In this document: positions 301-38,630 of the stretch, in pieces | How the letters are laid out: each line of letters opens with the position of its first letter | Numbering within the stretch: position 1 is the first letter of the stretch | Assembly: GCA_002688325.1 (NCBI GenBank) | Contig: NZCS01000006.1 | Coordinates: 1 to 46,020, forward strand | Length of the DNA: 46,020 bases | From: an archaeon | Lineage (GTDB): Archaea; Nanobdellota; Nanobdellia; SCGC-AAA011-G17; ARS1178 | Reading direction: 5' to 3' | Program-made: the position numbers and the translations under genes | Notes under the pieces: generated by a model | The model's input: the letters and a program-made list of their open reading frames with translations, nothing else | Told to the model about the DNA's origin: nothing | Databases searched by the model: none

Positions 301-375
301 CGCCCTGACCGGGATTTGAACCCGGGTTATAGCCTTGACAGGGCTATGTGCTAGGCCAGACTACACTATCAGGGC
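301..375 (-). tRNA. tRNA-Asp (GTC)
   Basis: On the minus strand the cloverleaf is complete: acceptor GCCCTGA pairs with TCAGGGC, the discriminator is G, the D-stem is GTGT/GCAC, and the anticodon stem TAGCC/GGCTA carries the loop CTGTCAA, giving anticodon GTC. The T-stem is CCGGG/CCCGG with loop TTCAAAT. CCA is not encoded. There is no intron, unlike the tRNA-Tyr 1 kb away. A discriminator G fits tRNA-Asp. Its 3' end faces the partial integrase gene. Confidence 0.95.
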
Positions 376-1340: not shown

Positions 1341-1355
1341 ATCCGGTGAGAGGGA

Positions 1356-1407
1356 CTTTCCAAACTCTTAAGGATTTTTTTGCAAACTTTTTTCCTAAAA
1401 AAGTTTA
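1356..1407 (-). other. tRNA-Tyr intron 2, T-loop (59/60)
   Basis: A 52-nt insertion splits the T-loop. It fits the endonuclease motif: outer helix GGGGG/CCCTC (T-stem), central 4-bp helix TTCA/GGAA (last pair A-G), bulges AA^T and AG^T of 3 nt each, then inner helix AAACT/AGTTT. Cutting after the second nucleotide of each bulge leaves TTCAAAT, a normal 7-nt T-loop. The intron also contains the perfect hairpin AAACTTTTTT-AGG-AAAAAAGTTT, which resembles the dispersed repeats at 14.6 and 38.6 kb. Introns at 59/60 are known from some Crenarchaeota but are uncommon. Confidence 0.85.
1375..1407 (-). repeat. Dispersed poly-T/poly-A hairpin repeat, copy inside tRNA-Tyr intron
   Basis: On the minus strand it reads TAAAC-T6-AGG-A6-GTTT followed by GC and an A-run. 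It matches the pattern TAAmC-T6-ArG-A6-GwTT..GC-A6 of the copies at 14620-14656 and 38571-38607. The hairpin arms are perfectly paired here. Confidence 0.5.
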
Positions 1408-1429
1408 TTTGAACCCCCGACCCTTCGGT

Positions 1430-1480
1430 TTCAGCTGATCATTCTTCATTTCCTGTCGTTTCGACATAATCAGATGATTT
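1430..1480 (-). other. tRNA-Tyr intron 1, anticodon loop (37/38)
   Basis: About 51 nt between position 37 (G at 1481) and position 38 (A at 1429), the canonical archaeal intron site. Inside, TGTCG-AAA-CGACA forms a perfect hairpin and ATCAT/ATGAT can form the helix next to the splice sites. Around the junction only a relaxed helix (CTG/CAG) is visible, so the boundaries may shift by 1-2 nt; either choice leaves a 7-nt anticodon loop. Confidence 0.8.
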
Positions 1481-1559
1481 CTACAGCCGAATGCTCTACC
1501 ACTGAGCTACCACCGGATATAATATTTAAAAGAAATACTATTTATAAAACTAACGTAAT

Positions 1560-2942: not shown

Positions 2943-3437
2943 TTATTCTCTCAATATTTCCCCATCCAAACCAATAACTTTAGAAGGTTTATTTTCTAAT
3001 TTCCCTACATCTACAACAATATCAACTTTTTCTTTAATACTTTCTTTCAAATCTTTTACATCAACTAAATTCTTTTCTCCAGTTAAATTAACACTTGTTG
3101 TAACAAAAGGTTTTCCACTTTCTAATATTAAATTAGTAAAATCACAATCTGGAATTCTAACACCTAATGTTCCTTCACTAACTTCCTTACTCACACATTG
3201 ATTTTTCATCCTAACAATAAAAGTATAAGGTCCTGGTAATTTATCTAAATCTTTTACTTCACAATTTTCCTTAATCCATTCTTTACTTGCAATAACAGAA
3301 AAAGGTTTTTTACTTTTCTTTATTTCTCTAATTCTTTTAACAGATTCGTCATTAGTTGCATCACAACCTAAACCATAAACAGTATCAGTTGGATAAACAA
3401 ATACCTTTCCTTTTTGAATTTCTTTTACAATATCCAT
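2943..3437 (-). CDS. tsaC: Threonylcarbamoyl-AMP synthase (Sua5/YrdC/TsaC)
   Basis: Makes threonylcarbamoyl-AMP from threonine, bicarbonate and ATP, the first step of t6A37 tRNA modification; the KEOPS complex does the second step. The 164-aa protein has the family hallmarks: YPTDTVYGLGCDA at residues 15-27, the basic KKSKKPF segment (the K-x-R-P-like ATP/substrate loop), the LPGPYTF segment, and TSVNLTGE (SxNxSG motif). It is a bare YrdC domain, shorter than the usual ~200 aa and without the Sua5 C-terminal domain. It lies downstream of mre11-rad50 with a 64-nt gap that holds the palindrome TTTAACTGTTAAA and an AT-rich TATA-like stretch, so it may have its own promoter. Confidence 0.92.
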   Translation of the reverse strand: MDIVKEIQKGKVFVYPTDTVYGLGCDATNDESVKRIREIKKSKKPFSVIASKEWIKENCEVKDLDKLPGPYTFIVRMKNQCVSKEVSEGTLGVRIPDCDFTNLILESGKPFVTTSVNLTGEKNLVDVKDLKESIKEKVDIVVDVGKLENKPSKVIGLDGEILRE

Positions 3438-14562: not shown

Positions 14563-14599
14563 TTTCCTCTTTTTTTGGTTAAGCTTTTTCCTTTTTCGT

Positions 14600-14622
14600 G
14601 AACGTTTTTCCTAAAAAGGTTC
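14600..14622 (-). repeat. Hairpin repeat, divergent copy
   Basis: On the minus strand GAAC-C-TTTTT, loop AGG, AAAAA-C-GTTC forms a 9-bp stem with one C-C mismatch. It is like the hairpin in the tRNA-Tyr intron and directly precedes the copy at 14620-14656. Confidence 0.5.
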
Positions 14623-14656
14623 TTTTTTGCTTAATCTTTTTTTCTAAAAAAGGTTA
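14620..14656 (-). repeat. Dispersed 37-bp hairpin repeat, copy A
   Basis: This 37-bp segment is nearly identical (about 35 of 37) to 38571-38607. Reading the minus strand it is TAACC-T6-A.., an A-run, then GATTAAGC-A6-G. It overlaps the stop codon of the MEMO-like gene and precedes the P-type ATPase. The hairpin plus U-run could also act as a terminator or RNA stability element. Confidence 0.7.
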
Positions 14657-15487
14657 CTCGAAGACTAAACTTCCATAACCCACAAATTTTTCATAATCTT
14701 CATTAACATCTCCTGAACTATAATGATGTAATAATTTACCTTTTGATTTAACAGCTTCCATTCCAATTATTATCGCATCTCCACCTTTAATATTCTTATC
14801 TTTTTTAAAATCAAAAAATTCTTTACTTTTTAAATCACATATCAATTTCATTCCTTTTTTATCCATATCATAAACACTTTCTTTTAAATTATGTTCAAAA
14901 GGTTTATAATTTTCATTTACATCACTAAAATTAGAACTAATTATTACTATTATATCTTTAAAACTTCCTAAAACTTCTCCAAATTTTTTCAATTCTTCAT
15001 AATCCTCACAATTTATCAAAATAGGTAAAATTCTTAATTCTTTTAACTTATCCTTATTAACAAACTGCAAAAAAGGTAACTGAACTTCTATACAACTTTC
15101 TCTTATTTGTACTTCCTCATCTACTTTTAATTCAGATTTCTCCATTAATTTATTTGCTAATTCAACATCAACTCTTACAGAACCAAAAACACTTTCCCAA
15201 TTTTCCAAAGAACAAGCAAACTTTCTTCCTAACTTTTTACTATTTACACCTAAAATAACATAAGTTTTACTAAATTCAGCTTCAGCTATCTCTTTATAAC
15301 TCCAGGCCATACCTCCACCAGATAATTTATACTTATCATTAGGAGTTATTATCCCTTTTATTTTTTTATGTCTCTTAATTGGTAAATCTCCAGGACCAAA
15401 TCTAGAAGTAAAACATCTATTTATTTCCTCATCTAACTTCTCAAAATCAGCTTCATAATAATCACCTTCAAAAATATTCTTTCTCAT
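14654..15487 (-). CDS. MEMO-like protein lacking the metal-ligand residues
   Basis: The 277-aa length and motif order match the MEMO1/AMMECR1-neighbour family (DODA-like fold), and the gene lies just downstream of rps2, the usual archaeal MEMO position. Yet each conserved metal or active-site motif is changed: PHAGY is PNDKY (49-53), GPNHT is GVNSK (80-84), EHSIEVQ is ESCIEVQ (130-136), DFMHY-like is NFSDV (186-190), and the TMCG cysteine motif near the end is GGDA. The hydrophobic framework (IEVQLPFLQF, GYGSLVF) is kept. I infer a folded protein without the ancestral metal site. Motif comparisons are from memory of the family. Confidence 0.75.
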   Translation of the reverse strand: MRKNIFEGDYYEADFEKLDEEINRCFTSRFGPGDLPIKRHKKIKGIITPNDKYKLSGGGMAWSYKEIAEAEFSKTYVILGVNSKKLGRKFACSLENWESVFGSVRVDVELANKLMEKSELKVDEEVQIRESCIEVQLPFLQFVNKDKLKELRILPILINCEDYEELKKFGEVLGSFKDIIVIISSNFSDVNENYKPFEHNLKESVYDMDKKGMKLICDLKSKEFFDFKKDKNIKGGDAIIIGMEAVKSKGKLLHHYSSGDVNEDYEKFVGYGSLVFE

Positions 15488-37472: not shown

Positions 37473-37756
37473 CCATAATAACTATTCTTTCTCAAACCAG
37501 CCCTTTCTAAAACATCAGTAATTCTTTCATCTAAACCATCTCTCATTTCAACTATATAACAAAGAATTTCTTCCCCTTCACAAATAGCTTGCAAACCATC
37601 TATTTCAATTGGTTCTCCAACAAAATCTCCTTCTTTCTTAAAAGTTGCTCCATGATAACCAGGAACTCTTCGTAAAATACTTAATATATCTTCATCTTTT
37701 GGAACTAATAAAAATCCAATATTAGGTTTAATTCCAACAGAATATAAGTCCATCAT
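37469..37756 (-). CDS. Hypothetical protein, 95 aa
   Basis: A mixed alpha/beta protein (VGIKPNIGFLLVPKDEDILSIL..., then GEEILCYIVEMRDGLDERITDVLERAG). Two adjacent ATGs (37756, 37753) can start it. TTTAACTGTTAAA overlaps the start region, with a TATA-like stretch further upstream. No family is recognised. Confidence 0.55.
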   Translation of the reverse strand: MMDLYSVGIKPNIGFLLVPKDEDILSILRRVPGYHGATFKKEGDFVGEPIEIDGLQAICEGEEILCYIVEMRDGLDERITDVLERAGLRKNSYYG

Positions 37757-37807
37757 TTTAACAGTTAAATTATTTTTCCCTTTATAAAAATTTATATGAT
37801 AAAGAAC

Positions 37808-38570: not shown

Positions 38571-38607
38571 TTCTTTTTTGCTTAATCTTTTTTCTTAAAA
38601 AAGGTTA
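38571..38607 (-). repeat. Dispersed 37-bp hairpin repeat, copy B
   Basis: Nearly identical to 14620-14656 (about 35 of 37). It lies between the GTPase gene and arvB, again shortly after a stop codon. On the minus strand TAACC-T6-AAG-A6-G forms the hairpin, followed by ATTAAGC and an A-run. Confidence 0.7.
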
Positions 38608-38630
38608 TCAGTTATATAAACTTTTTCTTT

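Follow-up and report, generated by a model that had tools for sequence, protein, structure and literature searches.

The window analyzed here, a 46,020-nucleotide (nt) stretch of a 606-kb assembly (36 contigs, 72% complete, 27% GC), carries on its minus strand a tRNA-Tyr(GUA) gene of three exons and two introns that runs from 1516 to 1342, as the preliminary description had placed it. Removal of 51 nt after position 37 and of 52 nt after position 59 leaves a sequence that ARAGORN calls as a perfect 72-nt tRNA-Tyr(gta) with all stems intact: a 7-bp acceptor stem (CCGGTGG/TCACCGG) with discriminator A73, a D-arm, an anticodon stem (TTCGG/CCGAA), and a T-stem (GGGGG/CCCTC). The 51-nt intron lies in the anticodon loop (1430..1480, minus strand), where the sequence and a constrained fold assign it to 37/38, the exact register being a probable one; a by-eye reading in the canonical 37/38 register gives a bulge-helix-bulge (BHB) motif with a U-U mismatch. 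The 52-nt intron interrupts the T-loop at 59/60 (1356..1407, minus strand), and the proposal of a second intron at this position is borne out by the restored tRNA. A TATA-like sequence, TTTATAAATA, located 23 to 32 nt upstream of the tRNA 5' end (1539..1548, minus strand), is the probable promoter. Elsewhere in the window, ARAGORN/Rfam-type calls place a tRNA-Asp(GUC) gene at 301..375 (minus strand) whose T-loop has no intron, and an open reading frame at 2943-3437, on the same strand and two genes upstream of tRNA-Tyr, resembles by eye the Sua5/YrdC/TsaC tRNA-modification family. A weak tRNA profile match at 37700-37779 was set aside, as it is not tRNA-like on reading.

In its unspliced form, the tRNA-Tyr gene was missed by ARAGORN and by Rfam at the gathering score, and a relaxed tRNA profile scan returned a weak partial match of 18 bits; the tRNA census of the genome was built on profile matches and is incomplete. 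The pre-tRNA folds better than 200 of 200 shuffled sequences (z = -4.0). An intact tRNA-Tyr at another locus would have spoken against the original reading, and a DNA search of the whole 72%-complete genome with the full gene detected none. At this completeness, a second tRNA-Tyr, or a beta subunit of the endonuclease EndA discussed below, could be absent from the assembly.

The T-loop intron has the boundaries TTCAAA^TAAAC...GTTTGGAAAG^T. Its assignment draws on the TTCAAA/T flanks, on the helices, and on the same design in tRNA-Arg(CCU), in tRNA-Gly(GCC), and, with covariation, in relatives. In the BHB, the T-stem GGGGG/CCCTC forms the outer helix and AAACU/AGUUU the inner helix, bulges are present, and the UUCA/GGAA center consists of three Watson-Crick pairs and an A-G mismatch adjoining the bulges, where a canonical BHB would have a 4-bp helix between two 3-nt bulges. 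The structure had been described as a clean BHB with two 3-nt bulges; the helices and bulges hold, but "clean" is slightly too strong because the fourth central pair is this A-G mismatch. Minimum-free-energy folding of the T-loop region does not contain the UUC/GAA helix, the energy model preferring one internal loop, and covariation in relatives is therefore used as support.

Among 103 genomes of the same order, a pattern for 59/60 introns gave approximately 105 distinct matches compared with approximately 39 in a reversed control, so that part of the matches are due to chance, and the related genomes are not independent of one another. The flanks of 30 matched loci were read; in most of them, five T-stem pairs and seven acceptor pairs identify a true T-arm. 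At the central BHB pair, tRNA position 57 covaries with its partner base in the intron (A-U, 53; G-C, 18; A-C, 3; G-U, 5; Fisher P = 1.3e-10). Introns at 59/60 are also present in a tRNA-Cys of Woesearchaeota UBA10192 (L058) and in tRNA-Asp of other relatives (L171 and L181). Further families of near-identical T-loop introns, such as ATCAGAACCGAGGTTCCGATACCTCCTG, occur within or between genomes G093, G094, G095, G081, G086, and G087.

The tRNA-Tyr gene is not the only one of its genome with such an intron. In both tRNA-Arg(CCU) and tRNA-Gly(GCC), the 59/60 site holds an intron built in the same way (TTCAAA^...GAAAG^T), and both genes are recognized as valid tRNAs by ARAGORN once these introns are removed. 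The fourth central BHB pair is mismatched in all three T-loop introns of this genome (A-G in Tyr and Gly, A-A in Arg), unlike in most relatives. Additional insertions, with positions read by eye, are found in the D-loops of four tRNAs (L021, L033, L037, and L015) and near 25/26 in two (L016 and L020), and several tRNAs have anticodon-loop introns by the same kind of reading. One of these genes, a tRNA-Gly(UCC) at L020 1501-1621 (C31:19668-19788), apparently has two non-canonical insertions, one near 25/26 and one near 53/54.

A single PF01974 gene is present in the genome and encodes an EndA of 189 amino acids. Its nearest public sequences come almost entirely from Woesearchaeota or Nanoarchaeota assemblies (best identity, 70%), by which the host is a Woesearchaeota-type DPANN (ultrasmall) archaeon. 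Alignment with the enzymes of Methanocaldococcus jannaschii, Nanoarchaeum equitans (alpha), and 30 Woesearchaeota reveals, within a single chain, both the catalytic Y, H, and K and the acidic loop L10 (DEEND and variants), and comparison with M. jannaschii EndA shows the same length over the aligned region and no inserted loop there. Heteromeric or epsilon2 enzymes of the CSL/ASL kind would have an inserted loop near the active site. A single gene with triad and L10 in the same chain is the pattern of the alpha4-like type, for which tetramer formation is predicted. Neither a second subunit of heteromeric or epsilon type nor a fused three-unit protein was found in the 72%-complete genome, which has no second PF01974 match and whose EndA is only 189 amino acids long. 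Of 28 relatives of at least 90% completeness, 26 have a PF01974 match, nearly always as a single gene. G002, listed as 100% complete, has no EndA match.

These results depart from the preliminary description in two respects. It had associated non-canonical introns mainly with Thermoproteales and other Crenarchaeota, but the host is not a crenarchaeon, its closest EndA sequences being those of Woesearchaeota; and it had pointed to an endonuclease of epsilon or heteromeric type, whereas we found the single alpha4-like EndA that is also typical of near-complete relatives. Its suggestion of broad splicing in this organism is supported by the three 59/60 introns and by the insertions in D-loops and near 25/26 and 53/54, but the enzyme type would not predict it. 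Alpha4 and alpha2 enzymes have been described as cutting canonical BHBs only, and Nanoarchaeota as having heteromers (PMC4033280, PMC4090602). The Woesearchaeota-type lineage does not appear to fit this rule, unless a very diverged beta subunit escaped the PF01974 profile, as could be the case. Because the enzyme is of an alpha4-like type that is described as strict, its broad activity is something we infer from the introns of the genome, which would argue against strict-BHB-only cutting.

The sequence of the tRNA-Tyr T-loop intron matches other places in the genome, where it belongs to a palindromic repeat of approximately 38 nt (consensus TAANC-T5/6-nn-A5/7-GNTTNANC-A5/6) that is mostly intergenic. 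Pattern search and reading located tandem copies in the window at 14587..14657 (minus strand), where they fill the space between two co-directional genes almost from the stop codon of one to the start codon of the other, and a single intergenic copy at 38571..38608 (minus strand). Throughout the genome, the pattern occurs at 21 places and its reversed form at none; a wider pattern gives 29 matches and its control none. In relatives, the wider pattern is found 67 and 68 times in two genomes, 29 to 38 times in three, and few times in most of the order. Most copies are intergenic, often placed immediately behind a stop codon and ahead of the following start, and some are directly 3' of tRNA ends. 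One copy directly follows a gene at L012 1501-1584 (C14:4078-4161) that is called as a tRNA-Leu with anticodon AAG (A34), which is unusual for an archaeon. In the relative G013 (C28, C32, C42, C76, and C84), the repeat forms tandem arrays whose period is 34 nt throughout, a length not divisible by three.

Because circularity was to be avoided, a hidden Markov model (HMM) profile was built from 20 intergenic copies only, with the tRNA-intron copies left out. The three T-loop introns are all found by this profile, as is an anticodon intron, that of tRNA-Ser(UGA), on the opposite strand. The scores are 31.5 bits for Arg-CCU, 28.2 for Ser-UGA, 26.6 for Gly-GCC, and 15.0 for Tyr, with 11.3 as the best of 500 shuffled sets; the Tyr copy (AAACTTTTTTAGGAAAAAAGTTTGCAAAAAAA; 1375..1406, minus strand) is the weakest match of the four. 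The tRNA introns thus hold four of approximately 30 repeat copies and account for about 0.1% of the genome by a hand estimate of total intron length (binomial P of approximately 2e-8, or 8e-5 when only non-coding DNA, taken as 12%, is counted). Finding a dispersed repeat inside an intron suggests a way in which these repeats spread, namely, by becoming removable introns. Creation of the intron by the repeat fits Arg-CCU, and entry of the repeat into an existing intron fits Gly-GCC and Ser-UGA.

A second repeat family, unrelated to the 38-nt repeat, shows the same duality in relatives. The 27-mer AAGGATTGCATCCTTATCAACCTGCAA is present at 14 places in G013 and G079 with 0 to 3 mismatches, and once each in three other genomes. 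Reading of the flanks assigned copies to T-loops, in different tRNAs, to D-loops, and to intergenic DNA next to stop codons; twice, a single tRNA has a copy in each of the two loops. The sequence is GC-mixed, and its copies, whether intronic or intergenic, are often exact. Its 5' arm, ATAAG, has two possible pairing partners, a nearby arm and a distal CTTAT, a layout like that of the 38-nt repeat, and the distal ATAAG/CTTAT pairing would form the inner BHB helix. In each family, the same intron sequence recurs in different tRNAs or positions of one genome: in Arg, Gly, Tyr, and Ser in the present genome, and in both T- and D-loops in the genomes G013 and G079. Inheritance of entire tRNAs from a common ancestor fails as an explanation for copies that sit in different tRNAs and in different loops.

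Taken as a whole, these data are best explained, and we think probably so, by a pre-tRNA-Tyr with two BHB introns, a single alpha4-like EndA, and a T-loop intron derived from the repeat. In the T-loop, the T-stem would provide the outer helix, UUC(A)/(G)GAA the short center, and AAACU/AGUUU the inner helix; EndA would cut at AA^U and AG^U, and a tRNA ligase would join the exons, so that the T-loop becomes UUCAAAU. The repeat would have moved into the tRNA gene rather than out of it, with its 5' arm pairing with the distal arm and extending the tRNA stem into a BHB, and the insertion would be removed at the RNA level. Repeats may be tolerated in tRNA loops because their arms complete the BHB, so that EndA would remove the insertion from the RNA. 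A wider generalization, to which we give slightly less than an even chance, is that the short, gene-free palindromic repeats of Woesearchaeota-type archaea are "introners" that spread intergenically and into tRNA loops of three kinds (T, D, and anticodon); there, a BHB would be completed by their arms, and an alpha4-like endonuclease would remove them from the RNA.

Several other explanations bear on how the repeat and the introns are related. The BHB introns could have come first and served as safe landing sites, in which case the repeat would be a passenger that did not give rise to the intron. The Gly-GCC repeat, nested between extra bases of its BHB (TAAC-[repeat]-AAAAGTT), and the opposite-strand copy in the Ser-UGA anticodon-loop intron are as this would have it; the Arg-CCU intron, however, is repeat almost throughout, with ends that form the inner helix, and in relatives the 27-nt repeat starts no more than a few bases from the splice site, in T-loops as well as in D-loops and in different tRNAs, and we regard the passenger account as unlikely overall, if a serious contender. 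Less probable still, in our judgment, is convergence, in which ordinary BHB introns merely resemble intergenic AT-rich hairpins, such as terminators, and no element has moved. Runs of T and A do dominate the consensus in a genome of 27% GC, the intergenic copies lean toward the transcribed strand (11 versus 3) as an RNA-level element would, and some directly follow tRNA 3' ends. Against this, the reversed-pattern and shuffled controls gave no matches or weaker ones, the tail GNTTNANC is specific, and the second family is GC-mixed, with copies at both kinds of site that often agree exactly over 27 nt. The repeats are also short, palindromic, high in copy number, and mostly intergenic, like REP elements, for which sizes of 20 to 40 bp are known (PMC3733652). 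They could thus be moved by a Y1 (HUH) transposase with the tRNA insertions as by-products, but Y1_Tnp genes were found neither in this genome nor in the repeat-rich G030, G041, and G043 or in G079 (which has the second family), some repeat-poor genomes do carry one, and viral contigs hold almost no repeat copies; we give this account little credence. In the searches for Y1_Tnp, which covered this genome and the repeat-holding relatives, no mobility enzyme for the repeats was found. A viral vehicle was considered and dropped, scans of viral contigs for the two families having given one match and none.

Two further alternatives concern the enzyme and the gene itself. Splicing by a heteromeric or epsilon-type endonuclease, whose second subunit is missing from the assembly, would suit a genome that is 72% complete, and the N. 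equitans enzyme is heteromeric with an alpha subunit close to this EndA. Yet exactly one PF01974 gene is present in most of the near-complete relatives searched, and this EndA retains the acidic L10 loop that N. equitans alpha does not have. Moreover, N. equitans beta is similar enough to match this EndA (E = 2e-10); therefore, such a paralogous beta should have shown up, and we consider a missing subunit improbable. That the locus is a decayed tRNA pseudogene, as its two large insertions might imply, is hardly credible given that all stems are intact after excision, that no other tRNA-Tyr was found, and that introns of many genomes keep to the same position and show covariation there.

The preferred reading, of repeat-derived BHB introns removed by a single EndA, would have several consequences. 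Gain of archaeal tRNA introns by transposition between tRNAs has been described, and its vehicle is not known (PMC4090602); the introner reading, if true, would supply such a vehicle and would make broad splicing possible without a heteromeric enzyme. Since two unrelated repeat families are found both as tRNA introns and as intergenic repeats, intron gain becomes testable through empty and filled sites in closely related strains. Should the single alpha4-like EndA indeed cut these introns, an order of DPANN archaea would depart from the rule that ties broad splicing to enzymes that are heteromeric, epsilon, or loop-bearing, and the heteromer of N. equitans could have arisen later, by the splitting of an enzyme that was broad to begin with. 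A practical consequence is that genes will go undetected in tRNA scans of such genomes, as happened to this tRNA-Tyr with both ARAGORN and Rfam.

We found no paper on such introns, on an alpha4-like enzyme, or on an identity of introns and repeats in Woesearchaeota, subscription journals being outside the search. Archaeal BHB tRNA introns at non-canonical positions, including 59/60, are known mainly from Crenarchaeota, Thaumarchaeota, Nanoarchaeum, and ARMAN (PMC4090602). The introns described here share with them the 59/60 position, a BHB-like geometry in which the fourth central pair of tRNA-Tyr is mismatched, and a 37/38 intron in the same tRNA, but their hosts are Woesearchaeota-type DPANN archaea and their bodies are common to intergenic repeats. 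Transposition of tRNA introns in Thermoproteales (Fujishima et al. 2010, as reviewed in PMC4033280 and PMC4090602), of which the mechanism is unknown according to those reviews, likewise involves near-identical introns in different tRNAs and positions of one genome. As far as the reviews describe that system, the present one differs in that the intron sequence also occurs as a repeat dispersed between genes and in that the endonuclease looks alpha4.

The alpha4 EndA of M. jannaschii (1a79) resembles the present enzyme in its single gene, aligned length, catalytic Y/H/K, and acidic L10, but alpha4 enzymes are described as specific for canonical BHBs (PMC4033280), whereas the host here has many non-canonical introns. 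The (alpha beta)2 enzyme of N. equitans (3iey) belongs to the same broader lineage and has an alpha subunit that strongly resembles the present EndA near the catalytic residues; broad specificity has been reported for the N. equitans enzyme, but its alpha has lost L10 and needs beta, while the EndA described here retains that loop, with no beta found in the genome. REP elements and other short palindromic repeats are likewise 20 to 40 bp long, palindromic, intergenic, and present in many copies, but the repeats here also serve as tRNA introns, and several repeat-rich genomes have no Y1 transposase. The model for the disrupted tRNA-Thr of Caldiarchaeum also proposes mobile DNA as the source of intron gain, through a 1.9-kb insertion with a putative recombinase (PMC3293823) in place of the gene-free repeats of approximately 38 nt seen here. 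With 59/60 introns and intron transposition already known, what appears to be new here is the lineage in which they occur, the enzyme, which is alpha4-like, and the identity of the tRNA introns with repeats dispersed between genes.
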